Origin: Zoogloea sp.
GTDB taxonomy: Bacteria > Pseudomonadota > Gammaproteobacteria > Burkholderiales > Rhodocyclaceae
Assembly: GCF_023150065.1 (NCBI RefSeq)
Contig: NZ_JAKLLN010000024.1
Coordinates: 1 to 61,482 of the forward strand
Direction: 5' to 3'
DNA: 61,482 nucleotides
Part shown: piece by piece, positions 1,516 through 27,483 of the stretch
Layout of the letters: the number at the start of each line of letters is the position of its first letter
How positions within the stretch are numbered: the stretch's first letter is position 1
Program-made: the position numbers and the translations under genes
The notes under the pieces: model-generated
What the model saw: only the letters and a program-made list of their open reading frames with translations
The model's database searches: none
What the model was told of the DNA's origin: nothing

Positions 1516-1541
1516 AGGCCAGCCGGGCCGGCGGCGGGAAA

Positions 1542-1559: not shown

Positions 1560-2268
1560 TCAGGGAGAGGGGCGCGGGTGTGCTGCGCTCTCCTTCGCGC
1601 AGTTCCCGCAGCCAGACGGCGGCTTCGAAGCGGTTGCGCAGGTTGAGCTTCTGCAGCACGTGCTTCACATGCACCTTCACCGTGCTCTCGGCGATGCCCA
1701 GGGAGCGGGCCACGATCTTGTTGGAGGCGCCTTTGGACACCAGCTCCAGGGTCTCCTGCTCCCGCACGGTGAGGGAGGCCCAGCCGGCGTCGATGCTCTC
1801 GCGACTGGGGGGCTGGGGCTTGGCGAGGAGGCCGCCGACCTCGGCCGACAGCACCGTGCCCCCGGCGGCCACCTGGCGCAGCTTGAGGCAGAACTCGTCC
1901 GGCTCCATGTCCTTCAGCAGGTAGCCGCTGGCCCCGGCCTTGAGGGCCTCCATCACGTCGAAGCTGGAGTCCGACACGGTCAGCATCACCAGCCGGGTGG
2001 CCGAGCCCGCCGACTGCAGGGCCCGCACCACCGAGATGCCGTCGAGGCCCTTCATGTGCAGGTCCACCAGGGCCACGTCCGGGCGATGGGTCAGCACTGC
2101 CTCAATGCCCTCGGCGCCGGAGGCAGCCTCGGCCACCACCTGGATGTCGCCGTACATGGACAGCAGCTGGCCGATGCCCTTGCGGAACAGGGCATGGTCG
2201 TCCACCACCACCAGGCGGATCGAGCCCCCCTCGGCGCCCGGCGGGGCACCCGTCATTGCATGTTCCAT
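1555..2268 (-). CDS. NarL/FixJ-family response regulator
   Basis: A 237-residue protein. The receiver domain carries DDH near residue 23, the phospho-acceptor Asp69 in VALVDLHMKGLDG, and the conserved Lys in GYLLKDM. The C-terminal LuxR-type helix-turn-helix (LTVREQETLELV ... GIAESTVKVHVKHVL) begins near residue 165. The histidine kinase gene lies 31 bp upstream on the same strand, so the two form a cognate pair in one operon. The start may be the ATG at 2268 or an in-frame ATG four codons later. The overall layout is NarL-like, but the kinase lacks a nitrate sensor domain, so the signal is not known. Confidence 0.88.
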   Translation of the reverse strand: MEHAMTGAPPGAEGGSIRLVVVDDHALFRKGIGQLLSMYGDIQVVAEAASGAEGIEAVLTHRPDVALVDLHMKGLDGISVVRALQSAGSATRLVMLTVSDSSFDVMEALKAGASGYLLKDMEPDEFCLKLRQVAAGGTVLSAEVGGLLAKPQPPSRESIDAGWASLTVREQETLELVSKGASNKIVARSLGIAESTVKVHVKHVLQKLNLRNRFEAAVWLRELREGERSTPAPLSLK

Positions 2269-2299
2269 GGCGCGTGTTTCCTTGTTTGAGTCATCAGGT

Positions 2300-3823: not shown

Positions 3824-4006
3824 GCTGGGGAGGCCTGTGAGGGTTGCGCCGCCCTTCGGCGCACCCCGACCAAAAAGCAACTTTCGCGCCCCACATGAAA
3901 CTCATGCCAATGGGCTCGGCGCCCCTCCTCCGCGCCCGGCTCGGTATCGCCCCCACGCGAAGGGGCGGCCCGGCCTTCCCCCGGGCGGGAGAAGACCGGG
4001 TGCGGC

Positions 4007-11241: not shown

Positions 11242-12258
11242 TCAGTCGCCCACGCGCACCACGATCTTGCCGAAGTGGCTGCCGCTCTTCATGTACTCGA
11301 GGGCGGCCGGGGCGTCGGCAAAGGCAAACTCCCGGTCGATCACCGGGCGGATGGAGTGGGTGTGGATGGCCGCCAGCATGTCCGCAAACATGGCCCGGCT
11401 GCCCACGAAGATGCCCTGGATGCTCGACGCCTTCGGGATCAGCATGACCGGGTTGGCCGCGCCGGCCAGGCCGGTGAGCACGCCAATGTAGGCAATCCGG
11501 CCGCCAGTGGCGACGCTCATCAGCGAACGCTCCAGGGTGCCCGGGCCGCCCACTTCCAGTACCACATCCACGCCCTGCCCGCCGGTCAGGCGCAGCACTT
11601 CCTCATGCCATTCCTGGTGGTGGCGATAGTTGATGCCGTGGTCGGCGCCCAGGGCCTTCGCCCGCGCCAGCTTGGCGTCGTCGCTGGAGGTGATGATCAC
11701 CTTTGCCCCCGCCGCCTTGGCGAACTGCAGCGCGAAGATCGACACCCCGCCAGTGCCCAGCAGCAGCACGGTCTGGCCGGGCTTGAGCTCGCCGGCTTCG
11801 AACAGGGAATTCCAGGCCGTCACCGCGGCGCAAGGCAGCGTGGCCGCCTCGGCGTAGCTGAGGCCGTCGGGCAGCTTGATCAGGCCGCTCTCGTCCGACA
11901 CGAAACGCTCGGTGAAGGCCCCGGCCGATTCGGCCCCACGCGCATCGGACAGCGCCCGGGCGTCGGGCTTGCCGCTGCGCCAGTGGGGGAAGAACAGGGT
12001 CGCCACCCGGTCGCCCACGGCCAGGCCCTGCACCTTGCTGCCCACCGCCACCACCTCGCCGGCGCCATCGGAGCAGGGCACCAGCCCGCCGGGGATCGGC
12101 GCGAAGTAGGTGTTGCGGGTGACCAGAATGTCGCGGAAGTTGAGGGATACCGCCTTGATGGCCACCGCCACCTCGGTGTCGCCGAGGGGCGCCGGCTCGA
12201 AGGCGGCTTGCTGGAGCGGGGAGTCGATGTTGTCGGGGAAGACTTCGTAGCGTCTCAT
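11242..12258 (-). CDS. Zinc-independent medium-chain dehydrogenase, quinone oxidoreductase-like
   Basis: A 338-residue MDR-superfamily enzyme. The N-terminal GroES-like domain contains SLNFRDILVTRN and PCSDGAGEVVAVG. The nucleotide-binding domain has LLLGTGGVSIFALQFAKAAGA, except that the longer run is summarised here as a GTGGVS dinucleotide-binding loop near residue 168. Catalytic zinc cysteines of alcohol dehydrogenases are absent, as in NADPH:quinone reductases. The start is the ATG at 12258 with GGAGAG nearby. The physiological substrate is unknown. It is a single gene between two differently oriented units. Confidence 0.8.
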   Translation of the reverse strand: MRRYEVFPDNIDSPLQQAAFEPAPLGDTEVAVAIKAVSLNFRDILVTRNTYFAPIPGGLVPCSDGAGEVVAVGSKVQGLAVGDRVATLFFPHWRSGKPDARALSDARGAESAGAFTERFVSDESGLIKLPDGLSYAEAATLPCAAVTAWNSLFEAGELKPGQTVLLLGTGGVSIFALQFAKAAGAKVIITSSDDAKLARAKALGADHGINYRHHQEWHEEVLRLTGGQGVDVVLEVGGPGTLERSLMSVATGGRIAYIGVLTGLAGAANPVMLIPKASSIQGIFVGSRAMFADMLAAIHTHSIRPVIDREFAFADAPAALEYMKSGSHFGKIVVRVGD

Positions 12259-12328
12259 GGTGGAGCTCTCTTGTTGTTGGGGAGGGAGGAGGATTCTGGC
12301 ACGGGAGGCACCACGCCGAATACGTGTC

Positions 12329-13807
12329 TCAGGACGGGACACCCCCCGCCTTCCGGACCTTTCCGGCCACCCCCGCCAGGCGCGCCACCAGGGCCGGGAT
12401 GTGCCCCGCCTCGGTCAGGCCATAGCCGAGCACCAGGCCGTTGCCCGGCGCGGTGCCGGTGTAATAGGCGCTCAGGGGGCGCGGAGCGATACCCTGCTCA
12501 AGAGCCGCCTCGGCCAGCACCGTGTCGGGCACCGCCGGCGGCAGGCCCAGCACCAGGTGCAGGCCGGCCTGCCCGCCAAGGATAGGGCAGTCATCCCCGA
12601 AGCCGGCCTGCAGGGCCGCCCGCAGCACCGCCTGGCGTTCGCGATACACCGGCGCCATGCGCCGCAGGTGGCGGGTCAGCTGCCCGCTCTCCAGCAACCG
12701 GGCGAGGGCCCGCTGCTCGACGGCCTGGCCGCCCCGGTAGAGCTTGCGGATGCCCTCCCCCAGCTCGGCGGCGGCCCAGCGCGGCACCACCATGTAGGCG
12801 ATGCGCAGCCCCGGGTAGAGCAGCTTGCTGAAGGTGCCGACGTAGATCACCGGCGCCTCCGGGCGCAGGCCCTGGATGGCCGGCAGCGGGCGGGCGCCAG
12901 GCTGGGCGTGGTTGAAGTCGCTATCGTAGTCGTCCTCGATCAGCCAGCCGCCGCCGGCCTCCACGCCGGCCAGCAGGGCCAGGCGCCGCTCCAGGCTGAG
13001 GACGCTGCCCAAGGGGTACTGGTGGGAGGGCGTGACATACACCAGGCGGGGTGGCGCTGCCTGCCACAGGCCCGGCGCCGGCGCCATGCCGTCCCGGTCC
13101 ACCTCCACTGCAACCGGCGCGAGCCCGGCGGCGAGCATGGCATTGCGCGCCGCCGGGTAGCAGGGGTTCTCCAGCCACACCGTCTCGCCGCTGTCGGCCA
13201 GCAGCCGGGCGCAGGCGTCCAGGGCCACCTGCCCGCCGGCCACGATGAACACCTGCTCCGCCGTGCACGCCACCCCGCGGCGCGCCGACAGGAAGGCAGC
13301 CACCGCCCGGCGCAGCTCCGGCTCGCCCCCCGGCTCGGCATAGGCCAACTGGCGGGCCGTCACCTCGGCCCAGGCCTGGTGCAGCAGGCGCGCCCAGGTG
13401 GCCCAGGGAAAGGCGTTCAGATCCGGCGCGCCGGGGGCAAAGGGCAGCAGGGCTTCACTGCGCTTGATGGCCGGCAACTGGTGCGCCCGGCGCGACAGGG
13501 TGTGGGCGCCGGCCGGCCGGTACTGGGTGCCACCAGCCGTGCCCAGGGGCAGGGCCGCCACCCAGGTGCCGCCCCGGTCCGCCTCGACGAAGCCCTCCGC
13601 CAGCAGGAGCTGGTAGGCAAACAGCACGCAGTTGCGCGCCATGCCCTGATCGGCCGCCAGCTGGCGGGTGCCCGGCAGCCGCGTTCCCGGGGCCAGGCGC
13701 CCGTCGAGGATGGCCGCCTTGAGCAGCCGGTACAGGCGCAACTGACGCGCCTCGGCGGCTGCAACAGCGGGATCATCGAGGGCGGAGAGGACGAGGCTGA
13801 GGGGCAT
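12329..13807 (-). CDS. MocR/PdxR-family regulator (GntR HTH plus aminotransferase-like domain)
   Basis: A 492-residue protein. Residues 1-80 form a GntR winged helix (LPGTRQLAADQGMARNCV). The rest is an aspartate-aminotransferase-fold domain with the PLP-binding lysine in YVGTFSKLLYPGLR near residue 320. MocR regulators usually sense PLP or an amino acid derivative and control an adjacent divergent gene. Here the divergent neighbour, 85 bp away, is an FMN-binding protein of the pyridoxamine-phosphate-oxidase superfamily, which fits vitamin-B6-related control. The ATG at 13807 is chosen because the HTH begins soon after it; longer readings add unrelated sequence. Confidence 0.88.
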   Translation of the reverse strand: MPLSLVLSALDDPAVAAAEARQLRLYRLLKAAILDGRLAPGTRLPGTRQLAADQGMARNCVLFAYQLLLAEGFVEADRGGTWVAALPLGTAGGTQYRPAGAHTLSRRAHQLPAIKRSEALLPFAPGAPDLNAFPWATWARLLHQAWAEVTARQLAYAEPGGEPELRRAVAAFLSARRGVACTAEQVFIVAGGQVALDACARLLADSGETVWLENPCYPAARNAMLAAGLAPVAVEVDRDGMAPAPGLWQAAPPRLVYVTPSHQYPLGSVLSLERRLALLAGVEAGGGWLIEDDYDSDFNHAQPGARPLPAIQGLRPEAPVIYVGTFSKLLYPGLRIAYMVVPRWAAAELGEGIRKLYRGGQAVEQRALARLLESGQLTRHLRRMAPVYRERQAVLRAALQAGFGDDCPILGGQAGLHLVLGLPPAVPDTVLAEAALEQGIAPRPLSAYYTGTAPGNGLVLGYGLTEAGHIPALVARLAGVAGKVRKAGGVPS

Positions 13808-13892
13808 CTGGCTCCATGAAGGGCAATTCTGGTGGCCCCATGGATGGTGCCACGCCGCTGCTATGCTGGCACCACTTATCCAGGAGCCTCCC

Positions 13893-14531
13893 ATGTCAGC
13901 CCCCAGCCCCCGTACCCAGGTCCACCGCAAACCCCAGCGCGCCCATTACGACGCCAGCACCGTCCATGCCATCATCGACCAGGCCCTGGTGTGCCAGATC
14001 GCCTTCAACCAGGGCGGCAGCGTGCACTGCCTGCCCACCGCCTGCTGGCGTGGCGGCGACCACCTTTACATCCACGGCGCCAACAACTCGCGCCTCACCC
14101 AGACCCTGCTCGCCGACGGCTGCGCCGTGTCCATCACCCACCTGGACGGCCTGGTGCTGGCCCGCTCGGCCTTCCACCACTCTATGAACTACCGCTCGGT
14201 AGTGATCTACGGCCGCTTCGAGGAGGTGACGGACAACACCGCCAAGGCCGCCGCCTTCCACGCCTTCGTCGAGCACGTCAGCCCCGGCCGCGCCGCCCGG
14301 GTGCGCCTCCCCTCCCCCGCCGAGATCGCCGGTACCCGCCTGCTGCGCATCCCCCTGGACGAAGCGGTCGCCAAGATCCGCAACTGGGGCGTGGAGGATT
14401 CAGCCGACGACATGGACATTCCGGTATGGGCCGGGGTGATGCCCCTGGCGCTCAGCGCAGGGCTACTGCAGCCGGACGCGGGGTGTGAAGGACGGGAGGA
14501 GCCTCAGCAGCCGGGCTTTTTCGCGGGGTGA
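13893..14531 (+). CDS. Pyridoxamine 5'-phosphate oxidase-related FMN-binding protein
   Basis: A 212-residue split-barrel protein of the NimA/PPOX-like flavin-nucleotide-binding family. Visible features are ALVCQIAFNQGGSVHCLPT, YIHGANNSRLTQTL and HHSMNYRSVVIYGRFEEV, and a C-terminal helix with VEDSADDMDIPVWAGVMPL that is typical of the family. AGGAG lies 7 bp before the ATG at 13893. It is divergent from a MocR regulator and is its most likely target. Members of this family reduce or detoxify various compounds; the substrate cannot be read from sequence. Confidence 0.85.
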   Translation: MSAPSPRTQVHRKPQRAHYDASTVHAIIDQALVCQIAFNQGGSVHCLPTACWRGGDHLYIHGANNSRLTQTLLADGCAVSITHLDGLVLARSAFHHSMNYRSVVIYGRFEEVTDNTAKAAAFHAFVEHVSPGRAARVRLPSPAEIAGTRLLRIPLDEAVAKIRNWGVEDSADDMDIPVWAGVMPLALSAGLLQPDAGCEGREEPQQPGFFAG

Positions 14532-15722: not shown

Positions 15723-17645
15723 TCAGGCCCTCACCCGTGCCTTGGTCGGGTCGTAGTGCGGGAACGCCACCACGGTCGCATCCAGGCGCTTGCGGTGTCC
15801 GTCCAGCTGCCCCACCTGGAGCGCGGTCTCCAGGGCCGAGTAGGCCACGTCCACCCGGGCCAGGGCGATCTGGGTGTTGAGCACCGGGGAGCGGACGCTG
15901 CTGGTGATCTCGCCGACCCTGGCACGCCCCAGGTAGATGCCGTCGCCGTGACTGGCGGGTTCGTTGCCGCTGATGGCGAGGCCGACCAGCTTGCGCCGGG
16001 GGTGGGCCTTGCGCTCTTCCAGGGCGGCCTTGCCGATGAAGTCTTCGGGTTTGGAGAGGGCCACGGTGAAGCCGATGCCGGCTTCGAAGGGGTCAGTCTG
16101 GTCGCAGAACTCCTGCCCGGCGAAGGCCAGGCCGGCCTCGATGCGCAGCATGTCGAGGGCGTCGAAACCCAGGGGTGCGATGCCCAGGGGTGCGCCGGCG
16201 TCCATCACCGCGGTCCATACCGCGGCGCCGTCGCGGGGGTGGCACCACAGCTCGAAGCCCAGCTCGCCGGTGTAGCCGGTGCGCGACACCACCACCGGGA
16301 TGCCAGTGGGGCCGCCGAGGCGGGCAGCGGTGAAGCGGAACCAGCCGAGCTCGGCGATGCCGGGCTGGACGGGGGCGGTCCACAGCAGGCGGGTGAGCAG
16401 TTCGCGGCTCTTCGGGCCTTGCACGGCCAGGTTGTGCAGGGCGTCGGTGGTGTCGCGGATGTGTACGTCGAAGTTGCCGGCGGCGGCCTGCTCCTTCAGC
16501 CACAGGCCGGTGGTGTCTTCGCCGCACACGAAGCGGAACACGTCGCGCCCCAGGCGGAACACCGTGCCGTCGTCCATCATGCCGCCGTGGGTGTGGCACA
16601 CGGCGGTGTAGACGATCTGCCCCACGGCGAGCTTGCGCAGGTCGCGGGTCTGCACCTTCTGCAGCAGGGCTTCGGCGTCGGGGCCGGCGACGTCGAACTT
16701 GCGCAGGGCCGACAAGTCCATGACGGCCACTTTCTCGCGGCAGGCCCAGTATTCGGCCAGGGTGCCGTGGCCGACGAAGCTGCGCGGCAGCCAGAAGCCT
16801 TTGTAGTCGATGAAGTCGCGGGTGAGGGTTTCGGTGACGGGGGCGAAGGCCGTCGGGCGGGTCAGGCGGGCGGGGGAGTCGGGCGTCATGCGGTGGGCCA
16901 TCGCGCGGGGGAAGGAGTGGTCGGCGGCGTAGACGCGCGCCTCGATGTCGGTGGGCTGCCAGGCGTTGGCGGGGTCGATGTCGTCGGCACAGGACGACAC
17001 CGCCACCACCAGATCCTTCAGGGCGCGCAGCAGCACATAGTCGCCGGGCTTCGACCAGGGTTCGGCAAAACCCAGGCTGCCGCAGGGCTGGATGAAGGTG
17101 TTGTAGAAGAAGTTGATGGCCGGCCAGCCCACCCGGGGGCGGATGCCGAAGCCCTCCAGCGCGGCGTTGAAGTTGTCGCTGCAGTTGGCGTGGCCGGGAA
17201 AGCCCAGGTCGTCGTAATACTTGCTGGTGCAGGCCAGGGCAAAGGCGTCGTGACGACCGACGGTGTCCTGCACGGTTTCGAGCAGGGGCTGCATGCGGGC
17301 GTCGAAGTACTTGGCGTGCAGGCCGGGCCGGGGGTAGGCGGCGCCAGCCAGGGTGCGGGTCACGGTGGGGTCGAGGCCCCACTCGTCCCCGGCTTCCAGG
17401 GCGGCGGCGTCGAAGGCCAGCAGGTCGGAGCACTGCCGCCCTTCCACGTCGATGACCTGGATGAACTGCCCGGCCTTCACCGTGAAGGCCCGGGCCGTGG
17501 CGGCGGCCACGCGGATCACCGCCAGCGGCTCGGGTAAGACCTGGGCGCTGCGCTGCGGCACTTCGGCGCGGAGCAGGAAGGGGTCGCCCTCCGCCTCCAC
17601 GGCGTCGGGCACAGGGGCGAGGGAGCCGGGCAGGATGGCATTCAC
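15723..17645 (-). CDS. DUF1989-GcvT fusion: urea-carboxylase-associated domain plus folate-dependent aminomethyltransferase domain
   Basis: A 640-residue protein starting at the GTG at 17645, which overlaps the flavin reductase stop by 4 bp. Residues about 30-230 match DUF1989, with IDVEGRQCSDLLAF, LHAKYFDARM and HANCSDNFNAAL. Residues about 255-640 are a complete GcvT-type domain with VMDLSALRKFDVAGPDAEAL, HTHGGMMDDGTVFRL (catalytic-aspartate region) and VVSRTGYTGELGFELW. DUF1989 proteins are subunits of the carboxyguanidine deiminase associated with urea/guanidine carboxylase. The GcvT half likely passes a C1 unit to THF. Its place as last gene of an N-demethylation cluster suggests a methylated-nitrogen substrate. 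The exact reaction is unknown. Confidence 0.78.
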   Translation of the reverse strand: MNAILPGSLAPVPDAVEAEGDPFLLRAEVPQRSAQVLPEPLAVIRVAAATARAFTVKAGQFIQVIDVEGRQCSDLLAFDAAALEAGDEWGLDPTVTRTLAGAAYPRPGLHAKYFDARMQPLLETVQDTVGRHDAFALACTSKYYDDLGFPGHANCSDNFNAALEGFGIRPRVGWPAINFFYNTFIQPCGSLGFAEPWSKPGDYVLLRALKDLVVAVSSCADDIDPANAWQPTDIEARVYAADHSFPRAMAHRMTPDSPARLTRPTAFAPVTETLTRDFIDYKGFWLPRSFVGHGTLAEYWACREKVAVMDLSALRKFDVAGPDAEALLQKVQTRDLRKLAVGQIVYTAVCHTHGGMMDDGTVFRLGRDVFRFVCGEDTTGLWLKEQAAAGNFDVHIRDTTDALHNLAVQGPKSRELLTRLLWTAPVQPGIAELGWFRFTAARLGGPTGIPVVVSRTGYTGELGFELWCHPRDGAAVWTAVMDAGAPLGIAPLGFDALDMLRIEAGLAFAGQEFCDQTDPFEAGIGFTVALSKPEDFIGKAALEERKAHPRRKLVGLAISGNEPASHGDGIYLGRARVGEITSSVRSPVLNTQIALARVDVAYSALETALQVGQLDGHRKRLDATVVAFPHYDPTKARVRA

Positions 17646-18190
17646 GCGCGGCTCTCCTTTTCCATCAGCTGGCGGTAGCCACCGGCACAGAACACCAGGG
17701 GCTCGCCGTCCTGGAAGCGCAGCTGGCGCACCTCGGCCACGAAGATGATGTGATCGCCGCCCGGGTACTGGGCGAAGGGCACGCATTCAAAAGTGGCCAG
17801 TGCACTGTCGAAGACCGGCGCCCCATGCTCGCCGGTGACGTAGTCGAGGTCGGCCCACTTGTCGCCGCCGCCCCAGGCGAAGCGGTTGGAGAGTTCGCTC
17901 TGGCCGGCGTCGAGCACGTGGATGGCCAGCGGCCCGCCGGCGGCGAAGCTGTCGCAGCAGGCGCTGCTGCGCGCCAGGCTGAAGAGCACCAGCGGCGGGT
18001 CGATGGACACGGAGTTGAAGGAGCTCACGGTGGCCCCCACCGGCCGCCCCAGTTCGTCCCAGGTGGTGACGATGGTGACGCCGGTGGGAAACAGGCCGAG
18101 GACCCGGCGGAACAGGCGTCCGTCAAAGGGCGCCCGGTGGGCGGGCGCCACGGCAGACACCGGAGCAGGCTGGTGGAGGGCGGCTTGCAT
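17642..18190 (-). CDS. Flavin reductase-like FMN-binding protein
   Basis: A 182-residue protein of the flavin reductase (HpaC-like) family: FPTGVTIVTTWDELGRPVGA, SSFNSVSIDPPLVLFSL and a C-terminal GGDHIIFVAEVRQL followed by PLVFCAGGYRQL. Members reduce free FMN or FAD with NAD(P)H to feed a partner monooxygenase. The partner is almost certainly the acyl-CoA-dehydrogenase-fold protein, whose gene ends 15 bp upstream. The stop codon overlaps the GTG of the DUF1989-GcvT gene. The ATG at 18190 gives full length. Confidence 0.87.
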   Translation of the reverse strand: MQAALHQPAPVSAVAPAHRAPFDGRLFRRVLGLFPTGVTIVTTWDELGRPVGATVSSFNSVSIDPPLVLFSLARSSACCDSFAAGGPLAIHVLDAGQSELSNRFAWGGGDKWADLDYVTGEHGAPVFDSALATFECVPFAQYPGGDHIIFVAEVRQLRFQDGEPLVFCAGGYRQLMEKESRA

Positions 18191-18205
18191 GGCGGGCTCC
18201 CGTGC

Positions 18206-19588
18206 TCAGGCCTGGGCGTCGGCCAGGAGTTTGCTGGCGAAGGCGGCCTTCTCTTCCTTGCTCATCTTCTTCAGCTCGTTGTTGAGCACGCGCTGGTTCA
18301 CCGCCTGGTTCCAGTAGTCCAGCACCTCGAAGCCGAGCAGCGCTGCCTTGCCGACGAACTGGCGCAGCACTTCGTTGGTGGGGCCCATCACCCAGCCGGC
18401 CTTGCCGTCGCGGAGCAGGCGCTCGATGCCCAGGGCCGGCTTGTAGCCGGTGCCGCCACAGGCGTGGAGCATCTTGTCCACCACGAAGGTGACGTTCTTG
18501 GAGGAGAAGAACTTGACCTGCCACAGCCAGTTGAGGATGCCGGTGCGCGGCAGGTGGCCGATCTCCCGGTGGGCGGACCAGTCGCAGTTGTTGGTGAGGT
18601 CATCGAGGGCCTTGGCGGCCAGGTACACATAGCTGCGGCTGGCGTTGGTGTCGATCAGGCACTCACCCACGTAGTCCTGGATGGTGGGGTAGTCGGCCAC
18701 GCGCATGCCCACGTCGTTGTGCACCTTGCGGGTGGTGTGGTTCTTGGTGATGTCCATGGCGGCCAGGCTGATGCCGTTCCAGCAGGCGGACGAACACACC
18801 AGGAAGAAGGGGTCCACCACTTCGTCATTGGACTTGGCGCCGTCGCCCACCGGGCCCACCAGCGCGTCCCTGGCGATGTCGACGCCATCCACCGAGATGG
18901 GGCCGGACTGGTTGCCACGCATGCCCAGGCCGTCCCAGTTGGCGGGGTCGGCCTTGATCTGGTCCTTGGTGACCAGGAAGCAGGACAGGTCGGAGTAGTC
19001 GCCGCCGAAATCCGGCGAGGTGGTCTGGATGATGTACCAGTCGGCAAAGCCGCCGGAGGTGGTCCACGAGGCCTTCTTGAAGACCTTCCAGCCGTCGTCG
19101 GTGCGCTCGGCGCGGGACGACATGGGGTACCAGAAATGGGAGCCGGTCTCCGGGTCGGAGTAGGACAGGGTGCCGATCAGCACGTCCTTGTCGACGCGGC
19201 GCAGGATGTCCTTGAGGCGCTCGTTGTCGTGGTGGCGCAAGAGGGCGGCGGCGCAGGCGCCCAGGTGCATGGTGTAGCACATGGCGGTGGAGGGGCAGCC
19301 GTAGCGGGCGATGGTCTCCACCACCATGGCGGCGCACAGGTGGCTCTCACCGCGGCCGCCCAGCTCCTTGGGGATGGTCAGGCTCATCAGGCCCATGGCG
19401 GCCAGGGCTTCGAAGTTCTTGCGGGGGTAGACGTACTTCTTGTCGCTCTCGATGGCGTTGGGGCGCAGGGTGGTTTCGCACAGGGCGATCAGGTCGGCCT
19501 GCAGGGCCTTCTGCTCGGGGCTGAGCAGCCACTGGGGGCTCCATTCGGCGCCGATTCCAACGGGGGTCATCTGGGTGCTTGCGTTCAT
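18206..19588 (-). CDS. Acyl-CoA-dehydrogenase-fold flavin-dependent monooxygenase (probable)
   Basis: A 460-residue protein with the three-part acyl-CoA dehydrogenase fold: a helical N-domain (MGLMSLTIPKELGGRGES), a beta middle domain (GTLSYSDPETGSHFWYPM, KKASWTTSGGFADWYI) and a C-domain containing MLHACGGTGYKPALGIERLL. It is paired with a flavin reductase, as in two-component monooxygenases such as DszC, SfnB and N-oxygenating homologues. Oxygenation of a nitrogen- or methyl-bearing substrate therefore fits better than acyl-CoA oxidation. AAGGAAACC precedes the ATG at 19588. The substrate is not evident. Confidence 0.72.
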   Translation of the reverse strand: MNASTQMTPVGIGAEWSPQWLLSPEQKALQADLIALCETTLRPNAIESDKKYVYPRKNFEALAAMGLMSLTIPKELGGRGESHLCAAMVVETIARYGCPSTAMCYTMHLGACAAALLRHHDNERLKDILRRVDKDVLIGTLSYSDPETGSHFWYPMSSRAERTDDGWKVFKKASWTTSGGFADWYIIQTTSPDFGGDYSDLSCFLVTKDQIKADPANWDGLGMRGNQSGPISVDGVDIARDALVGPVGDGAKSNDEVVDPFFLVCSSACWNGISLAAMDITKNHTTRKVHNDVGMRVADYPTIQDYVGECLIDTNASRSYVYLAAKALDDLTNNCDWSAHREIGHLPRTGILNWLWQVKFFSSKNVTFVVDKMLHACGGTGYKPALGIERLLRDGKAGWVMGPTNEVLRQFVGKAALLGFEVLDYWNQAVNQRVLNNELKKMSKEEKAAFASKLLADAQA

Positions 19589-19628
19589 GGTGGTTTCCTT
19601 TGCGTGAGTGTTTTGAAGAGGGGGATTC

Positions 19629-19653
19629 GTAGGGGCAAATGAAGTCGCCCCTA
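19629..19653. repeat. Single degenerate REP hairpin between monooxygenase and N-demethylase genes
   Basis: GTAGGGGC pairs with GCCCCTAG around a loop containing AAATGAAGTC. It matches one half of the REPIN unit, with changes in the inner stem. It lies in the 69-bp gap between two genes of the demethylation cluster, just downstream of the haem demethylase stop codon. Confidence 0.7.
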
Positions 19654-19657
19654 GGGG

Positions 19658-20728
19658 TCAGGTCAGCGTGTCGACGCCGGCTTCGGTGCCAATCGGCAAC
19701 TCGGCGCCGTCGTCATGCCGGCTCAGCCACGCCAGGGCGGCGGGCAGGTAGCGGGTGAGGCCCTTGTATTCGACGAGCTGGGGCGGCAGGCTCGACAGCA
19801 CTCGGTGGAGTCGGGCGCCCCACTTGGGCACCCGGGCCAGATCGTCCAGGGAGGCCAGATAGCAGCGGATCGGGAACAGGATTGCGTTGCTGCGGGGCAG
19901 GCGCCACAGGGTCTGCAGCTCCACGCGCAGGTGCACCTTGCTGCCGGCGTTGTCGGGGGTCACGCTGGCCCGGTCGGTGCCCCATTCGGGGAAGCTCTCG
20001 GGCGAGGTGTCGAGGCGCGGGTTGATGGTCATGGTCCAGTTGAGGCGGCGCACCGGCTGGCCCAGGCGCAGCATCAGCAGGTATTTGAGGGCGCGCTCGA
20101 AGACGCCGGTCTGGTGGGCCAGGGGCACCGGGCCGTGCCATTCCATGAAGCTCATGCCCACATCGAACTCCAGGGACCAGTCGGCCTGGGAGGTGACCAT
20201 GCCGGCGTCCATGTAGAGGTTGTCGTCGCGCTGGTCACAGATGGCGAAGTCGCCCTGGGCCTGGCGGGTGATGTATTCAAAGGGCTCGCAGGGCAGCGTG
20301 GCGGCGTCGCCGAAGATGAAGCTCTGCTCGATGCCCAGGGGCCGGTTGGTCCAGGTCCAGCGGCTGCCGAAGTCGTCACCTTCCTTGGTCAGGGAGAAGT
20401 GCTCCGGGTAGTCGGCCGACAGGTTCTCCATCAGCAACTCGAGGGTGTCCCACTGGGCCAGCATCATGTGGGGCAGCACCTGGCAGCGGCCGGGGTCGCG
20501 CTCCAGGGTGATGGCCCGGTCGCGGCATTCGGCGATGTAGTGCTCATCCACATCGAAGGGCCGGATGAAGACGTCGCTGGGGCCGCTGCGCACATGGGGC
20601 TCGATGTTGACGCTGTACATGTACTTGTCTTCCGGGAAGGGGAAGGGAAAGCGCAGGATGGCGGCGTCGCTGTTGCGGTAGCTGTAGTCACCGCGGAAGG
20701 TTTCTTCAGGTTTGAAAGCGATGCTCAT
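19658..20728 (-). CDS. Haem-dependent oxidative N-demethylase-like protein (DUF3445)
   Basis: A 356-residue protein of the DUF3445 family. Its characterised member is the haem-binding PAS-fold alpha subunit of HODM, an oxidative dimethylamine demethylase. Visible family features are RFPFPFPEDKYMYSVNIEPH near the N-terminus, LPHMMLAQWDTLELLMENL, and RLNWTMTINPRLDTSP and VELQTLWRLPRSNAILFPIR in the second half. AGGAGATCG precedes the ATG at 20728. The 2Fe-2S reductase and DmmA-like genes immediately upstream complete the expected electron chain. Inferred reaction: NAD(P)H- and O2-dependent removal of an N-methyl group as formaldehyde. The substrate may be dimethylamine or another N-methyl compound. 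Confidence 0.82.
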   Translation of the reverse strand: MSIAFKPEETFRGDYSYRNSDAAILRFPFPFPEDKYMYSVNIEPHVRSGPSDVFIRPFDVDEHYIAECRDRAITLERDPGRCQVLPHMMLAQWDTLELLMENLSADYPEHFSLTKEGDDFGSRWTWTNRPLGIEQSFIFGDAATLPCEPFEYITRQAQGDFAICDQRDDNLYMDAGMVTSQADWSLEFDVGMSFMEWHGPVPLAHQTGVFERALKYLLMLRLGQPVRRLNWTMTINPRLDTSPESFPEWGTDRASVTPDNAGSKVHLRVELQTLWRLPRSNAILFPIRCYLASLDDLARVPKWGARLHRVLSSLPPQLVEYKGLTRYLPAALAWLSRHDDGAELPIGTEAGVDTLT

Positions 20729-20739
20729 GTCGATCTCCT

Positions 20740-20796
20740 GTAGGGGCGACTTCAGTCGCCCGCGGGGGTGGGTTGGGCGACTGAAGTCGCCCCTAC
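20740..20796. repeat. REPIN-like doublet with shortened spacer, inside the demethylase operon
   Basis: A 57-bp element with both hairpin units intact (GTAG plus GGGCGACTTCAGTCGCCC, then its inverse) but only about 13 bp between them. It fills nearly all of the 75-bp gap between the reductase stop (20804) and the demethylase ribosome-binding site at 20733-20738, so it must be transcribed in the operon mRNA. Confidence 0.9.
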
Positions 20797-20803
20797 AGCG
20801 GTT

Positions 20804-21754
20804 TCACAAATCCAGCACCAGCCGCCCGGCCCGGGCCCGCGAGACGCAGGGCATGATCAGGCGGCCGGCGGCGCGCTCGTCGGCGGACAGGAAGTGGTCG
20901 CGGTGCTCGGCCTCCCCTTCCAACAGGGGGGTGACGCACACGCCGCAGGCGCCACCGCGGCACAGGCAGGGGGCGGCCACGCCGGCGCGCTCGATGGCGT
21001 CGAGCAGGCTTTCGTCCTCGGCCACCTCCAGCTCGATGCCGGAGCGGACCAGGAAGGCACGGAAGGCTTCGCCGCCGAACAGGGCCGAGCCGAAGTGCTC
21101 GCAATGCACGTGGCTGGCGGGCCAGCCGGCCACGGCGGCAGCGGCCATCACCTCGTCGTTCATGGCGGCGGGGCCGCACACGTAGAGGTGGGTGCCCGCC
21201 GGCTGGCTGGCCAGCAGGGCCGGGATGTCGAGGCGGTGGCCGTCGGCGTCCCAGTGGAAGGCCACCGCCGGGCTGCTGCCCAGCCAGGGTGCGAAGACAT
21301 CCTTTTCCGACTCGCGGCAACACACGTGCAGGGCATGGCCGGCACCGGTGAAACCGAACTCGGCCAGATAGGACAGGAAGGGAGTGATGCCGATGCCGCC
21401 GGCGATCATCAGGTGGTGGCGGGCAATGCGCACCGGCGCAAAGAGGTTGCCCGGCCAACCGGCCAGCAGCCGGTCGCCCACCTCGAGTTGCTCGTGGATG
21501 AAGGCCGAGCCGCCGCGGGAGGCGGGCACCCGGCGCACGATGATCTCCCAGGCATCCCGGGCGCCGGGCCGGCTGACCAGGGAGTAGGCGTTGCGCCAGG
21601 TACGCGCCGCGCCTTCCAGCACGAACTGGACGTGGGCACCGGCGGCGGCCGGGGGCAGCTTGCCACCATCGGCCGCCACCAGGCGCAGGTGACGCAGGCC
21701 GGGGGCGATGTCGGTCACCGCCGCCACCTGCAGCAGGAGGGTGTCGCCGATCAT
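20804..21754 (-). CDS. Flavin/2Fe-2S oxidoreductase (PDR/VanB type), reductase for the N-demethylase
   Basis: A 316-residue phthalate-dioxygenase-reductase-type protein. The flavin-binding barrel has RNAYSLVSRP near residue 60. The nucleotide-binding domain has MIAGGIGITPFLSYL near 120. The C-terminal plant-type ferredoxin has cysteines in CRGGACGVC plus a fourth in IMPCVSRA. HODM and dimethylamine monooxygenase use such a subunit to move electrons from NADPH to haem. The ATG at 21754 overlaps the DmmA-like stop codon by 4 bp (ATGA), so the two are translationally coupled. Confidence 0.87.
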   Translation of the reverse strand: MIGDTLLLQVAAVTDIAPGLRHLRLVAADGGKLPPAAAGAHVQFVLEGAARTWRNAYSLVSRPGARDAWEIIVRRVPASRGGSAFIHEQLEVGDRLLAGWPGNLFAPVRIARHHLMIAGGIGITPFLSYLAEFGFTGAGHALHVCCRESEKDVFAPWLGSSPAVAFHWDADGHRLDIPALLASQPAGTHLYVCGPAAMNDEVMAAAAVAGWPASHVHCEHFGSALFGGEAFRAFLVRSGIELEVAEDESLLDAIERAGVAAPCLCRGGACGVCVTPLLEGEAEHRDHFLSADERAAGRLIMPCVSRARAGRLVLDL

Positions 21755-22332
21755 GCGAAGACCTCCTCGATGGCCGGGATCTCGCCGGGCGCCTCGGCGT
21801 CCACCATCACGCCCATGAAGGCGCCCAGGCGGCGGGAGAAGTGGTCGCGCACCAGCAGGTGGCGGCCACAGCCGGCACAGGGCACGACGTTGGTGGTCAC
21901 CTGCTCGGTGACGCCGTGGCAGTGGGTGCACCACACCCGGCGCTGCAGGCTGCCGGCATGGCACAGCTGGAGCTGGCCGGGGCCGAAGCCGACGATGGCC
22001 GCCGCAGTGGCCACCGACCACAGGAAGGGCTCGGTGCCCTGCACGTAGAGCCGGTCGCCGATGCCGTAGCCGCGGGTGGCGCAGGCCAGGGCGTCCACCA
22101 CGTCGGCCACGGCCGGCAGATGCCAGGGCTTGCCGAGGCCGGGTGCGGCCAGCGCCTCGCCCACCAGCCAGGTATGAAGGTTTGCCACCACCGGAGCGAA
22201 GGCGTCGGCCAGGCCGGCCAGGCCCCCGGGCTGCAGGGTGGCCGCCTCGATCACCAGCAGATGGCCGGCGGCGGCGAGGTCGGGTTCGAGGGCCCGGTAG
22301 GTCGGGCGGCTCTTGATGTCGGAGTGCAGCAT
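21751..22332 (-). CDS. dmmA: Dimethylamine monooxygenase subunit DmmA-like protein
   Basis: A 193-residue protein. The N-terminal two-thirds is an alpha/beta domain (GIGDRLYVQGTEPFLWSV). The C-terminal third is a zinc-ribbon-like module with CTHCHG and CAGC, followed by LLVRDHFSRRLGAFMGVMV, the hallmark of the DmmA C-terminal family. DmmA is an accessory or structural subunit of the amine monooxygenase complex. It begins 11 bp after the permease stop codon and overlaps the reductase start. Its presence with a DUF3445 protein and a PDR-type reductase is the main reason for calling this an N-demethylase locus. Confidence 0.78.
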   Translation of the reverse strand: MLHSDIKSRPTYRALEPDLAAAGHLLVIEAATLQPGGLAGLADAFAPVVANLHTWLVGEALAAPGLGKPWHLPAVADVVDALACATRGYGIGDRLYVQGTEPFLWSVATAAAIVGFGPGQLQLCHAGSLQRRVWCTHCHGVTEQVTTNVVPCAGCGRHLLVRDHFSRRLGAFMGVMVDAEAPGEIPAIEEVFA

Positions 22333-22343
22333 CGCGGGCCTCC

Positions 22344-24038
22344 TCACAGCACGGCCATGGCGTGGGCGATGGCGATCACCGCCGCACCGCCGGCCAGGGT
22401 CAGGTAGGGCAGGATGCCAGCGCGGGTACCGACGCCCGTCTCGCTGCCCAGATGCATGTCTTCCTGCATCGCCGCAGGAAACTGGCCCTTGTCGACGATG
22501 TAGTGGCGGTAGAAGAACACCGGCAGGATCATCGCCGCTGCCAGCAGGCCGGTGGCCAGGGTGCCGGCACCCCAGATGTCGGCGCCCATGCCCATCAGCG
22601 CCAGATTGACGAAGGCCAGCACGGTGCCGATGGCAATCAGCCAGGTGGGCGCCTTGAAGGGGCGCGGCCAGCTCGGGCGGTCGATGCGGTGGATCCAGGC
22701 GGCGTTGAGGTTGAGGAAGTTGAAGAGGATGTAGCAGACGTTGGAGATGGCCAGCACGAAGACGTAGTCGGACATCAGCAGCAGGATCAGGTTGAAGCCC
22801 AGGTCGGTCCACATGGCCGGGGTCGGCGCGCCGTTGGCATTCACGTGCGACAGGTACTTGGGTAGCCAGCCATCCACCGAGGCCTGGTACAGGGTGCGCG
22901 AGGAGCCCGCCATCGAGGTCATGATCGACAGCACCAGGGCCAGCACCAGCATCGCCATCAGCACATGCTCGACCAGCGCGCCGGCGCCCAGCATGTGGGC
23001 CATGGCGTGGGCCACGCCCATGCCGCTGTAGATGTCGGGCGACAGGATGCCGTCGTACACCGCCGGGGTGACCACGTTACCCGCCGCATCCACCACCGCC
23101 GGCGTAACCAGCTGGCCGAGGCCGATGGAGCCCTGAAAGGCCAGCGGCACCACGGTGAACACGAAGATGCACAGCAGGCCCGAGTACAGGATGGCCTTGA
23201 AGGTGTCGGTGCGCGGGTTGCGGAACTCACGGGTGTAGCACACCGCCGTCTCGAAGCCGTAGGTGGACCACGCCGCCATGAACAGCCCGCCGGAGATCAG
23301 GGTCAGCCCGGCCATGTCCCAGGCGCCGTCGATCACCGCACCGCCGGCATCCTTGGCCAGGGGGTAGAGGGGCGTCAGGTTGGCGGAGGGCACGTCACCG
23401 GAGAGCAGCGGCCACAGGCCGATCAGCATCAGCGGCGCGAGGGCCGCAACGCCCAGCACCATCTGCATGCGCGCCGCCTGCAGGATGCCCCGATGCTGGA
23501 TGGCGAAGGCCGCCAGCAGCACCGCCGCGCCCAGCACGAAGGTGGCGTTGATGCGCAGGGACAGGCCAGCCTTGATGCCGGAGAGATCCAGCAGGGTGAT
23601 CTGCCAGGTGTTGATGGCCGCATCCGGCGCAAACAGGATGGACAGGATGTAGCCCGCCGCCAGCCCCGAGCCGATGGCCAGCACTGGCGACCAGGCCAGC
23701 CAGTTGCACCACACCGAGAGCGGCGCCAGCATCTTGCTGTAGCGCACCCAGGCCACCGCCCCATACACCGACGCGCCGCCCGACTTGTGCGGGAAGAGGC
23801 CGGCGATCTCGGCATACGAGAAGGACTGCAGGAAGCCGAAGGCGATGGAGATGATCCACACCGCCCACGACGGTTTGCCCACCGTGGCGGCGATGGAACC
23901 GATGGAAAAAAGCACCAGGGCCGGCACCCCGCTGGCCACCCAGAAGGCGCCCGCCCAGCCGATCTTGCGATGGAGCGTCGCGCTGGCGCCGCCGCTCCCG
24001 ATGCCGCCGGTCACGGCATCCACTGTCGTCGTGTTCAT
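22344..24038 (-). CDS. APC-superfamily amine/amino-acid permease
   Basis: A 564-residue transporter with about 12 membrane helices. The N-terminal helix 1 region FWVASGVPALVLFSIGSIA and a later SIMTSMAGSSRTLYQAS segment (helix 8 region) are typical of APC amino-acid/polyamine/organocation carriers. AGGAG precedes the ATG at 24038. It is the first gene of the demethylation operon, 11 bp before the DmmA-like gene, so it probably imports the methylated substrate. The insertion DAAGNVVTPAVYDGIL between helices is longer than in short family members. Substrate specificity is not readable. Confidence 0.85.
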   Translation of the reverse strand: MNTTTVDAVTGGIGSGGASATLHRKIGWAGAFWVASGVPALVLFSIGSIAATVGKPSWAVWIISIAFGFLQSFSYAEIAGLFPHKSGGASVYGAVAWVRYSKMLAPLSVWCNWLAWSPVLAIGSGLAAGYILSILFAPDAAINTWQITLLDLSGIKAGLSLRINATFVLGAAVLLAAFAIQHRGILQAARMQMVLGVAALAPLMLIGLWPLLSGDVPSANLTPLYPLAKDAGGAVIDGAWDMAGLTLISGGLFMAAWSTYGFETAVCYTREFRNPRTDTFKAILYSGLLCIFVFTVVPLAFQGSIGLGQLVTPAVVDAAGNVVTPAVYDGILSPDIYSGMGVAHAMAHMLGAGALVEHVLMAMLVLALVLSIMTSMAGSSRTLYQASVDGWLPKYLSHVNANGAPTPAMWTDLGFNLILLLMSDYVFVLAISNVCYILFNFLNLNAAWIHRIDRPSWPRPFKAPTWLIAIGTVLAFVNLALMGMGADIWGAGTLATGLLAAAMILPVFFYRHYIVDKGQFPAAMQEDMHLGSETGVGTRAGILPYLTLAGGAAVIAIAHAMAVL

Positions 24039-24212
24039 CTGCGTTCTCCTCAAGGTCGAATAAAAACCACACCGCCAATAGCGATATGGCTGCACTGTCC
24101 GCCGCCGGGCCGTGGCGAACAATTCGACTTTGGGAGTAGGTCGCAGGGGGAATTGAGGAAGGTCGCGGGCGGGCGTGAAATGGCCTCACCCCAACCCCCG
24201 GAGGCACCTCCA

Positions 24213-25064
24213 ATGAAAATTTCTCTTCGGACAATGAGCGCAGGCCTGCTCATCAGCCTGCCCGCCCTCGTCGCCCCCGCCTTTGCAGAAGACGCCCCGG
24301 CCGCCGCGCCGGAGCTGACCACCAACATCGGCCTGGTCTCGGAATACGTGTTTCGCGGCATCCGCCAGACCTGGGGCAACCCGGCCATCCAGGGCGGTGT
24401 GGACTACGCCCATGCCTCGGGCTTCTACGCTGGCGCCTGGATGTCCAACACCAGCGCCAACCTCTACGCCAACGCCAACGTGGAGATCGACCTGTACGGC
24501 GGCTACCGCGGCGCAGTGGGGGATTTCAGCTACGACGTGGGCCTGCTGCAGTTCATCTTCCCGAAAGCCAACTACGACAAGATCACCCCCGCCGGCAGCT
24601 ATGCCAGCAAGACCTACGACACCACCGAGCTCTACCTGTCGGGCACCTGGCAGTGGCTCAACGTCAAGTACTCCCGCGCCCTCACCGACGTGGGCTACTT
24701 CGGCTTCAGCAGCAACAACGCCGGCTTCGGCGCCTTCCCCAACAAGCCCAACGCCGGCGTCACCGGCAAGGACACCACCGGCTCCTGGTACATCGAAGCC
24801 AACATCACCTACGAATTCATCCCCACCTGGACCGCCACCCTCCACGCCGGCCGCCAGACCATCGCCAACTCAAAAGGCCTGGACTACAGCGACTACAAGG
24901 TGGGCGTGACCAAGAGCATGCCCGGCGCCTGGACCCTCGGCCTGGCCTACACCACCACCGTCGGCGCCGACTACTGGAAGAACTACCCCAGCCTGGCCGG
25001 CAACGGCACCACCAAGGACATGAACGCCGGGACGTGGATCGCCTCGGTGAACCGGGTGTTCTGA
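24213..25064 (+). CDS. TorF-family putative outer-membrane porin
   Basis: A 283-residue protein with a signal peptide ending AFA near residue 24. The family pattern is present: NIGLVSEYVFRGIRQTWGNP, GGVDYAHASGFYAGAWMSN, then alternating aromatic strands and a C-terminal SVNRVF ending in phenylalanine. GGAGG precedes the ATG at 24213. It is divergent from the permease and shares its 174-bp promoter region, so co-regulation with the demethylation operon is plausible. The family is widespread and its cargo uncharacterised. A strong terminator follows. Confidence 0.85.
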   Translation: MKISLRTMSAGLLISLPALVAPAFAEDAPAAAPELTTNIGLVSEYVFRGIRQTWGNPAIQGGVDYAHASGFYAGAWMSNTSANLYANANVEIDLYGGYRGAVGDFSYDVGLLQFIFPKANYDKITPAGSYASKTYDTTELYLSGTWQWLNVKYSRALTDVGYFGFSSNNAGFGAFPNKPNAGVTGKDTTGSWYIEANITYEFIPTWTATLHAGRQTIANSKGLDYSDYKVGVTKSMPGAWTLGLAYTTTVGADYWKNYPSLAGNGTTKDMNAGTWIASVNRVF

Positions 25065-25311: not shown

Positions 25312-27372
25312 TTACATCTTCAGATTGAGGGAAAGATAGGCCGACCTCCCAGGCCCCGGCGAATACATGGGCTGCTCGCTGCCTGCCGGCCAGAAGAAGT
25401 TGTCGTACCAGACGTATTCATACTTGCGGTCGGTCAGGTTCTTCAACTGCAGATCCAGGCTGGCGGCCTTCGTCAGGGCATAGCGCACGGAGGTATCGAA
25501 GAGCACGAAGCCACCGTGCTTGCCCTTGGCGTTCAGGTCGTCGATGTAATAGCTCCCCTGGGCGCGCCCCTGGAGGCTGAGCCGCCACTTTTCGGTGGCC
25601 TGGTATTCGACGCCGACGTTGGAGATGTAGCGCGGCGTCGAGAAGACCTCCTTCCCGGCGAGGGAGACACCGCCGGCCGTGAAGGCACGCTGCACCGTGG
25701 CCTCCTGCAGGGAGTGGGACAGCCACAGCTTGAGCGAGTCGGTCACCCGGCCGGTGACCTGGAAGTCCACGCCCTTGCGGCGCGTCTGCCCGAGGCCGAC
25801 GGTGGTGCCGGTGCTCGGCATGTTGGCCACTTCGTCGGTAGCGTCCTGCTGCCACACCGCCACCCGGACTTCCGTGTCGGCGAGGGGCTTGAGCTTGATG
25901 CCGATCTCCTTGCCGGTGTTGATGGACGGCCTGAACTCGGCCTGGCCGGGGGTGAGGTAGGCCGGTGCCCGGGAGCCGGTGAGGATCTGGAAGCTGCGGC
26001 CCCAGTTGGCATAGACGCTGGCGGCGGGCGTCACGCCATACACCACGCTGAACTTGGGCTGGCTGATCCAGCCGTAGTCCTGCAGGGATGCCATCGCCCC
26101 GGTGGTGTGGAGCTGGGTGCTGCCCGAGAACTTGTCGGCGCGGAAGCCGGGAATGATCTTCAGGGAATCGATGGGCTTGATGACGGCCTGCACGTAGGCC
26201 CCCAGATTGCGCAGGGTGTAGCTGTCATCGTTCGAGGTGGTGGCCGGTGTGGAGAAGTCGGTGGGGCTGGCGTAGGCGTAGCGATAGCGCCGGTAGCGGT
26301 TGTCCTGGTGCTCGGCATTGACGCCGCCGTCGATCACCAGCGCATCGCTGGCGCGCCAGGTCAGGGTGGTCATGAAGCCGGTCTGGTCCTCGTCCCACAT
26401 GCGGCGCTGGCGGGGTGCGGAGCCTGCCGGACTGCTGGTGAAGGTCACCTTGCGGTCATCGGCGTAGGTGTTGAAGTAGAGCTTGCTGCTGAGGGCGGTG
26501 CGGGGGTTGAGCTGCCAGTCGAGGTGTGCGCTGACGTGCTTCATATCCCGGTCATCGCCATCCCGGGCGTTCTTCGCCGGTGACTGGCTGCGACTGGCAG
26601 CCAGCTCGCGGGCGGTCAGAAAGCCCGGCTCCTCCGCCTGGTGACTGTAGGCCCGCACGATCACGCCGGCGGTGAGATCGGCGCCGGCCGGCGTGTAGAA
26701 CCACTTGGCGCTCGCCGAGTACTTTTCCGATTCGGAGTGGTCCCGGTGGCCATCGGAATCCTGCCTGGCAAAAAAGTAGCTCTGGGACCAGCCCTCGGAC
26801 TCCCGGCCCAGCGCCACCTGCAGTTCCCGGGTGTTGAAGCTCCCGACGGTGAGGCGACCGTCGGTGTAGTTGCCGCCCTGACGGGTCACGAGATTGATGT
26901 TGCCGCCGATGTTGTGCAGGCCGTAGCGCGGGTCGTTGGTCCCCCGCACGACTTCGATGTATTCGATGTCGAGGGGGAAGATCATGTCGATGAAGCGCTG
27001 GTTGCCGCTATTGACGTTGCTGGGGATGCCGTCGATGAGCACCTTGATGCCGTTGATGTAACCCTCGCCATTGAAGGCCCGGAAGGTCGCCTTGCCCGAC
27101 TCGGCGCCCATGCGGGTTTCAGTGAGCTGGATGCCGGGCATCTGCCCGATCAGCTCCCAGCTGTTCATGACGTTCTTGTCCTGCACCTTGTCGCCGCCGA
27201 GGATATCGACGGAACTCAGGATGCTGTGGGTCGGCAGGGGGCCGCTGGCCTGGCCGCGGACGGCGACCTCGCCGAGCACGATGGCCGAGTCGCCGTCGGC
27301 TGCGGCGTAACAAGGGGAATAGAGGGAAGACAGGGCGGACGACACCGCCAGCGACAACAGTTTGGTTTTCAT
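25312..27372 (-). CDS. TonB-dependent outer-membrane receptor
   Basis: A 686-residue protein with a signal peptide (ending CYAAA near residue 28). A plug domain at about 55-165 contains LIGQMPGIQLTETRMG, INGIKVLIDGIPSN and IEYIEVVRGTNDPRYG. A 22-strand-type barrel follows, with the closing segments LQLKNLTDRKYEYVW and a terminal LSLNLKM. All elements of the family are present and the length is normal. The ligand is not evident. The DUF2946 protein just upstream is of a kind often seen near metal (copper or cobalt) uptake genes, which hints at a metal chelate. The ATG at 27372 is followed by a good signal sequence. Confidence 0.88.
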   Translation of the reverse strand: MKTKLLSLAVSSALSSLYSPCYAAADGDSAIVLGEVAVRGQASGPLPTHSILSSVDILGGDKVQDKNVMNSWELIGQMPGIQLTETRMGAESGKATFRAFNGEGYINGIKVLIDGIPSNVNSGNQRFIDMIFPLDIEYIEVVRGTNDPRYGLHNIGGNINLVTRQGGNYTDGRLTVGSFNTRELQVALGRESEGWSQSYFFARQDSDGHRDHSESEKYSASAKWFYTPAGADLTAGVIVRAYSHQAEEPGFLTARELAASRSQSPAKNARDGDDRDMKHVSAHLDWQLNPRTALSSKLYFNTYADDRKVTFTSSPAGSAPRQRRMWDEDQTGFMTTLTWRASDALVIDGGVNAEHQDNRYRRYRYAYASPTDFSTPATTSNDDSYTLRNLGAYVQAVIKPIDSLKIIPGFRADKFSGSTQLHTTGAMASLQDYGWISQPKFSVVYGVTPAASVYANWGRSFQILTGSRAPAYLTPGQAEFRPSINTGKEIGIKLKPLADTEVRVAVWQQDATDEVANMPSTGTTVGLGQTRRKGVDFQVTGRVTDSLKLWLSHSLQEATVQRAFTAGGVSLAGKEVFSTPRYISNVGVEYQATEKWRLSLQGRAQGSYYIDDLNAKGKHGGFVLFDTSVRYALTKAASLDLQLKNLTDRKYEYVWYDNFFWPAGSEQPMYSPGPGRSAYLSLNLKM

Positions 27373-27483
27373 GAGCGCAGACTTTCTCCAGGGCAATGGC
27401 TGCCCGATGATCGACGCCCTCCCCCCTCGGGCTGCCGGAAGGTGGCAGCACGATGGAGAGAAGGCAGGTACTGGAAGGAAGGA

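Follow-up and report, generated by a model that had tools for sequence, protein, structure and literature searches.

According to our analysis, a seven-gene run in a stretch of Zoogloea sp. DNA (contig NZ_JAKLLN010000024.1 of assembly GCF_023150065.1, completeness 97.85%; positions 1-61,482, the whole of this 61,482-nucleotide stretch being called the window hereafter) is, judged by the families of its products, a pathway for trimethylamine (TMA) and trimethylamine N-oxide (TMAO). Within this run, a protein of acyl-CoA dehydrogenase (ACAD) fold and the adjoining flavin reductase would quite probably form a two-component flavin TMA N-oxygenase that takes the place of Tmm, i.e., a non-orthologous replacement. 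A precedent is given by the ACAD-fold (group D) two-component enzymes, which convert dimethyl sulfide (DMS) to dimethyl sulfoxide, as Tmm does likewise (PMC13352529). The seven genes span positions 15723-24038 on the minus strand, with a TorF porin gene divergent on the plus strand. Open frames and family matches confirmed the genes and strands that the original prediction had named, which are as follows:

22344-24038, minus strand: permease of the APC superfamily, TMAO permease type (NF053774 848.6 bits, cut-off 690; PF13520 218.7 bits)
21751-22332, minus strand: DmmA-like subunit of dimethylamine monooxygenase (NF041259 102.6 bits, cut-off 60; PF22289/PF22290)
20804-21754, minus strand: 2Fe-2S/NAD(P) reductase subunit, with a 4-bp overlap with the DmmA gene (PF00111 54.3 bits; NAD_binding_1 25.1 bits)
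19658-20728, minus strand: HODM alpha-like protein (DUF3445), predicted haem-type N-demethylase subunit (PF11927 232.5 bits, cut-off 25)
18206-19588, minus strand: ACAD-fold protein, proposed oxygenase of the two-component flavin TMA N-oxygenase
17642-18190, minus strand: flavin reductase, proposed partner of the ACAD-fold oxygenase, 15 bp behind its gene (PF01613 132 bits)
15723-17645, minus strand: short-form TMAO demethylase (DUF1989 and GcvT) without the N-terminal DUF1989-like domain (NF053776 1069.3 bits)
24213-25064, plus strand: TorF-family outer-membrane porin, probable uptake part (TIGR02001 141.3 bits)

The spacing within the run is operon-like, with intergenic distances from the permease to the last gene of 11, -4, 75, 69, 15 and -4 bp. 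The gene order is not a product of chance, since loci of Zoogloea, Azoarcus and Parazoarcus keep all seven genes in the identical order. The closest named relatives belong to Zoogloea (locus L002, 97% identity for the ACAD-fold protein).

The exchange with Tmm is visible within the window's own family, of which 199 genomes were sampled. TMAO demethylase (Tdm) was found in 12 of these genomes and the ACAD-fold protein in 8, all of which carry a Tdm of the short form (model start 149-155). The remaining four Tdm genomes, all of one genus, encode a long Tdm, and the ACAD-fold protein has no match in them. The presence of Tmm there was predicted before 40 kb around each tdm were fetched. In all four, a Tmm gene (70-72% identity of the product) was found on the tdm strand, 157-190 bp upstream of tdm. 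Also encoded in these Tmm-type clusters are dimethylamine monooxygenase (Dmm), a permease similar to the window's (72-74%), a porin of the TorF family (42-43%) and a protein resembling DmmD (43-44%). Tmm on the one hand and the ACAD-fold protein plus reductase on the other are thus alternatives in the same gene set within one family. Several of the eight ACAD-positive genomes appear, from identical contig positions or scores, to be already counted in the wider comparison below (G399, G401, G402 and G403), and the four Tmm-type genomes are new.

Beyond the family, Tmm was searched for with a query (P0008) taken from beside tdm in another genome; its best matches in the PDB are bacterial flavin-containing monooxygenases (FMOs), among them 6kbw, 'Trimethylamine monooxygenase'. 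The model NF053775, tried for the same purpose, turned out to represent an unrelated family. At E 1e-30, P0008 had no match in the window's own genome (97.85% complete), where the FMO domain PF00743 was matched twice, partially in both cases (62.1 and 20.5 bits). The test set comprised the genomes of 50 of 80 loci with a relative of the ACAD-fold protein and 22 of 31 other Tdm genomes, and Tmm was matched in 20 of the latter 22 but in 6 of the 50 ACAD-protein genomes. Tdm was present in 48 of the 50 ACAD-protein genomes vs 32 of 397 sampled Pseudomonadota, and a search of these 397 at E 1e-60 returned the window's own genome as the sole match to the ACAD-fold protein. Few candidates were scored per genome after a loose first look (up to four for the ACAD-fold protein and two for Tdm among the Pseudomonadota, up to eight and five, respectively, in the family sample), so lower-ranked matches could be missed in these counts. 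Tdm loci were also scanned for an FMO motif. Of 20 fetched Tdm loci that lack the ACAD-fold protein, 13 had it in an open frame near tdm; of the 80 ACAD loci, two (L029 and L042) showed its Tmm form.

The original prediction had made its composite pathway depend on co-occurrence beyond this genome, which was indeed found. Flanks of 5 kb or more on both sides are available for 51 of the 80 relatives of the ACAD-fold protein. Within reach are a homologue of Tdm in 45 of these 51, a flavin reductase in 34 and HODM-alpha in 26. The ACAD-fold protein is spread over Proteobacteria, Gemmatimonadota, Latescibacterota, Armatimonadetes and cyanobacteria, as the phyla are labelled in the records. The Dmm set lies within the same cluster in Zoogloea, Azoarcus, Caballeronia and Xanthobacter, and loci in other phyla hold GmaS-type synthetases, a glutamate-synthase-like protein, a protein of the ammonium-transporter family, formate-tetrahydrofolate ligase or primary-amine oxidase. 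These neighbours, identified on representative copies, all fit the use of methylamine and C1 units.

Three observations on individual loci may be added here. A member of the primary-amine oxidase family, identified on the L079 copy (11461-13395), recurs in the cyanobacterial ACAD loci L052, L058, L074 and L075 (cluster 33) and may oxidise methylamine there. A protein of about 170 amino acids is encoded directly behind tdm in L063 (14198-14713) and eight other loci (cluster 16), from cyanobacteria and one Armatimonadetes metagenome-assembled genome (MAG); neither Pfam (at E 1e-5) nor NCBIfam (at E 1e-30) gave a match for its L063 copy. Locus L054, from a 1.6-Mb MAG labelled Euryarchaeota, has the ACAD-fold protein and a flavin reductase and no Tdm match, and represents either an exception or a problem of binning or completeness.

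The last gene of the run had been described in the original prediction as a DUF1989-GcvT fusion. The fusion as such is present, with matches to PF09347 (147.7 bits), PF01571 (220.1 bits) and PF08669 (59.7 bits), but its match to the NCBIfam model NF053776 points instead to a short form of the known Tdm (PMC12560246). This match of 1069.3 bits, below the cut-off of 1100, covers 609 of 763 model positions (155-763), the first 154, i.e., the N-terminal DUF1989-like domain, being absent. That domain cannot fit, since the open frame reaches at most 687 amino acids. The likely start is a GTG at 17645, which overlaps the stop of the reductase gene as GTGA; the protein then has 640 residues. The ATG at 17786, chosen mechanically as start, falls within the reductase gene. 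The zinc cysteines C143, C159 and C223 as well as D78, H156 and D226 are kept and are invariant in the aligned set (P0001 numbering, with the GTG start at residue 5). At an offset of 120 they equal C263, C279, C343, D198, H276 and D346 of M. silvestris Tdm, the Zn- and Fe-binding residues proposed in PMC12560246; the numbering was taken from that paper and matched by offset, the M. silvestris sequence itself being outside the alignment. Though not a strict member of NF053776, the protein is by these features a short Tdm relative and should act like Tdm.

The tested genomes of Zoogloea, Azoarcus, Parazoarcus and Caballeronia share the short form, and in cyanobacteria the Tdm matches begin at model positions 107-153. 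The long form occurs in Xanthobacter, Labrys, Gemmatimonadota, Latescibacterota and the tested Rhodospirillales, and among the 32 Tdm matches of the Pseudomonadota sample the window's begins at position 155 and all others at positions 4-12. The N-terminal domain, called ubiquitous in PMC12560246, is thus not so. A separate case are the 774-aa Tdm-like proteins of L131 and L132 (G383 and G067): they form a long branch of their own, their genomes are without Tmm and ACAD-fold protein, and the HODM matches are weaker (165-173 bits). Their substrate may differ.

The remaining genes of the run agree with the oxidative N-demethylation, the HODM/Dmm core and the C1-handling GcvT domain that had been proposed initially. 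DmmA-type subunit, 2Fe-2S reductase and HODM-alpha, the latter the single PF11927 match in the whole genome, are present together, and family membership supports their assignment as a Dmm core that would demethylate dimethylamine. The permease passes the curated cut-off for TMAO permeases (848.6 vs 690 bits, NF053774), and TorF porins occur in 13 loci of the Zoogloea type. A methylated guanidine or amide had been suggested as substrate; it is not needed and was dropped because the fusion and the permease matched TMAO models. The related claim that the run holds one oxygenase more than dimethylamine requires was borne out, and TMA and TMAO explain the extra step.

Further pathway genes lie elsewhere in the window and genome. 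The following three genes stand together at the start of the window:

343-1473, minus strand: DmmD-like stand-alone GcvT protein (best match NF053776, 238 bits; under the GcvT cut-offs)
1555-2268, minus strand: NarL-like response regulator, candidate pathway regulator (receiver/HTH-like sequence, judged by eye)
2300-3880, minus strand: NarX/NarQ-like histidine kinase, candidate regulator (NarQ and NarX models, both under cut-off)

The DmmD-like protein is 84-85% identical to the Parazoarcus and Azoarcus copies (L012/L013), whose genes lie some 4.4 kb downstream of the respective tdm, and, among the matches listed, 63-74% identical to those in Caballeronia, Labrys and several Tmm-type loci. On the same strand it is preceded by the two regulatory genes (343-3880 in all). 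Among the matches listed, the kinase reaches 68-69% identity in L012/L013 and 39% in L015/L018, where it lies on the tdm side of the DmmD-like gene, and Azoarcus, Parazoarcus and Caballeronia loci have a kinase between the two. Kinase and regulator are a candidate methylamine sensor. Contig C218 of the same genome encodes, in order, an FAD oxidoreductase, a sarcosine-oxidase-alpha-like protein and a GmaS-type synthetase, followed by a glutamine amidotransferase domain, a GXGXG protein and a glutamate-synthase domain, a set that by analogy fits the N-methylglutamate (NMG) route. Two neighbours of the run are recorded in passing. A TonB-dependent receptor gene (25312-27384) adjoins the porin and is probably outside the pathway, since only three fetched loci (L002, L014 and L071) match it, over half its length; and a MocR/PdxR-like regulator is divergent from a gene judged PNPOX-like by eye (12329-14531).

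Since Dmm, DmmD-like, GmaS and NMG-type genes cover the other steps, the oxidation of TMA to TMAO is left for the ACAD-fold protein and its reductase. We posit that the permease and the porin import TMAO, and perhaps TMA. The flavin reductase would make reduced flavin with NAD(P)H, from which the ACAD-fold protein would form a C4a-hydroperoxyflavin with O2 and oxidise TMA to TMAO. By family membership, the short Tdm would then split TMAO into dimethylamine and formaldehyde, which its GcvT domain may hand to tetrahydrofolate, and DmmA, reductase and HODM-alpha would convert dimethylamine to methylamine. Genes elsewhere in the genome, of GmaS type and resembling N-methylglutamate synthase and dehydrogenase, would then finish methylamine.

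The ACAD fold of the 18206-19588 product was confirmed. Its Gly402, in the motif MGPTNE, aligns with the Glu of the YEGTNQ motif in 3pfd, 8i4p and 7w0j, which we take to be the catalytic base of acyl-CoA dehydrogenases. The position is Gly in all 38 aligned sequences, the window's included, and the protein is thereby without the Glu in YEGTNQ that defines enzyme-type acyl-CoA dehydrogenases; this check covers the YEGTNQ position, isovaleryl-CoA dehydrogenase using a base at another position outside it. Residues H108, W153 and W270 are invariant among the aligned sequences. VlmH, likewise of ACAD fold, and DszC are absent among the fold matches listed, which is not counted as evidence against them.

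Two other explanations have to be weighed against a TMA N-oxygenase. The ACAD-fold oxygenase might act after Tdm on dimethylamine (or methylamine), as an N-oxygenase/demethylase parallel to Dmm, in an organism that uses imported TMAO only. This would fit G415, G424 and G442, which have Tmm, Tdm and the ACAD-fold protein and no HODM match. HODM is, moreover, found less often in genomes with the ACAD-fold protein (18 of 42 tested vs 19 of 20 other tested Tdm genomes), so that a dimethylamine role is left open in some lineages. We nevertheless regard it as unlikely for the window: Zoogloea, Azoarcus, Caballeronia and Xanthobacter hold the Dmm set in the same cluster, and in the swap at family level it is Tmm that is exchanged while Dmm stays. 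An absent Dmm, moreover, need not be made good by the ACAD-fold protein, because Tmm and Tdm without Dmm are known from SAR11 (PMC5520151) and were seen in G008. Methylamine as the substrate is weakened by the NMG-type genes of the own genome and by GmaS-type genes in 46 of 47 tested genomes (G000 and 46 of the 50 ACAD-protein genomes). The protein might also be an ordinary acyl-CoA dehydrogenase or another flavin enzyme, in the cluster by chance or acting on a side substrate such as DMS, which the group D enzymes oxidise and Tmm accepts too (PMC13352529). The best fold matches are mostly dehydrogenases, which rank first, with the ACAD-fold flavin-containing monooxygenase 5z8t at rank 19. We consider this explanation very doubtful in view of the Glu lost in 38 of 38 sequences, the presence of Tdm in 48 of 50 genomes from several phyla as labelled together with the swap with Tmm, and the other six genes of the run, none of which matches an acyl-CoA family.

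Like the HODM counts and the fold ranking, several further observations weigh against the assignment as a TMA N-oxygenase. Tdm is out of reach in 6 of the 51 full-flank relatives. Two of the 50 ACAD-protein genomes, G431 and G430, had no Tdm match, the locus of the latter (L052) holding a partial Tdm frame. Tmm occurs beside the ACAD-fold protein in 6 of these 50 genomes (three Labrys, G415, G424 and G442), and neither was matched in 2 of the 22 other Tdm genomes (G067 and G383). The flavin reductase is not in reach in 17 of the 51 full-flank loci, 10 of them cyanobacterial, and no cyanobacterial ACAD locus had a reductase match. In a tree built from 59 Tdm rows, those linked to Tmm and those linked to the ACAD-fold protein are interleaved, with at least six changes in the presence of the ACAD-fold protein on the best tree, but two independent contrasts lie on well-supported branches and are not significant; the tree alone therefore proves nothing. 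Eight of the 50 ACAD loci had no usable Tdm for it, five near-copies were removed beforehand, and the 95% relative from L002 stood in for the window's Tdm. Fisher tests of co-occurrence ignore kinship and were not relied on.

Weighing these data, it seems likely that a second, unrelated TMA N-monooxygenase of ACAD fold has been swapped with Tmm beside tdm, and that tmm-based surveys consequently miss TMA oxidisers. Marine surveys use Tmm as a marker gene for the oxidation of TMA (PMC5520151); if the swap is true, such surveys would overlook freshwater, soil and cyanobacterial TMA oxidisers, and an unrelated enzyme would perform the step from TMA to TMAO in a wide set of bacteria, cyanobacteria included. 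The replacement would be a non-orthologous one for which a single family supplies matched natural controls, and TMA/TMAO cycling would gain a second marker gene. Judged on titles and the openings of abstracts, with most subscription papers outside our reach, we found no ACAD-fold enzyme that yields a tertiary amine N-oxide, and nothing was found that pairs a TMAO demethylase with an acyl-CoA dehydrogenase. As far as this literature goes, tertiary amine N-oxide formation would be a new activity for a well-known fold.

The known TMA pathway of the Ruegeria pomeroyi type consists of Tmm, Tdm, Dmm and GmaS/NMG (PMC5520151, PMC13390433). The Zoogloea genes resemble it in the TMAO permease type, Tdm, the Dmm core, the DmmD-like protein, the GmaS and NMG-type genes and the proposed order of reactions, but have the ACAD-fold protein and flavin reductase instead of Tmm, and a Tdm without the N-terminal domain. 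The latter shares with Tdm (NF053776) DUF1989 and GcvT, 609 of 763 model positions, the three zinc cysteines and the proposed iron residues, and differs in the missing first 154 positions and a score of 1069 bits under the cut-off of 1100. The ACAD-fold protein is like the group D enzymes Dms1-3 of Acinetobacter baylyi and DszC in its fold and separate flavin reductase (PMC13352529), yet has no close sequence relation to DszC (50.5 bits, model cut-off 850). Dms1-3, DszC and VlmH, an isobutylamine N-hydroxylase (PMC7347517), oxidise sulfur or nitrogen in small molecules, as we propose for the window's protein. With Tmm it would share the reaction from TMA to TMAO and the same slot beside tdm, although Tmm is a single-component enzyme of the FMO type and of a different family and fold.

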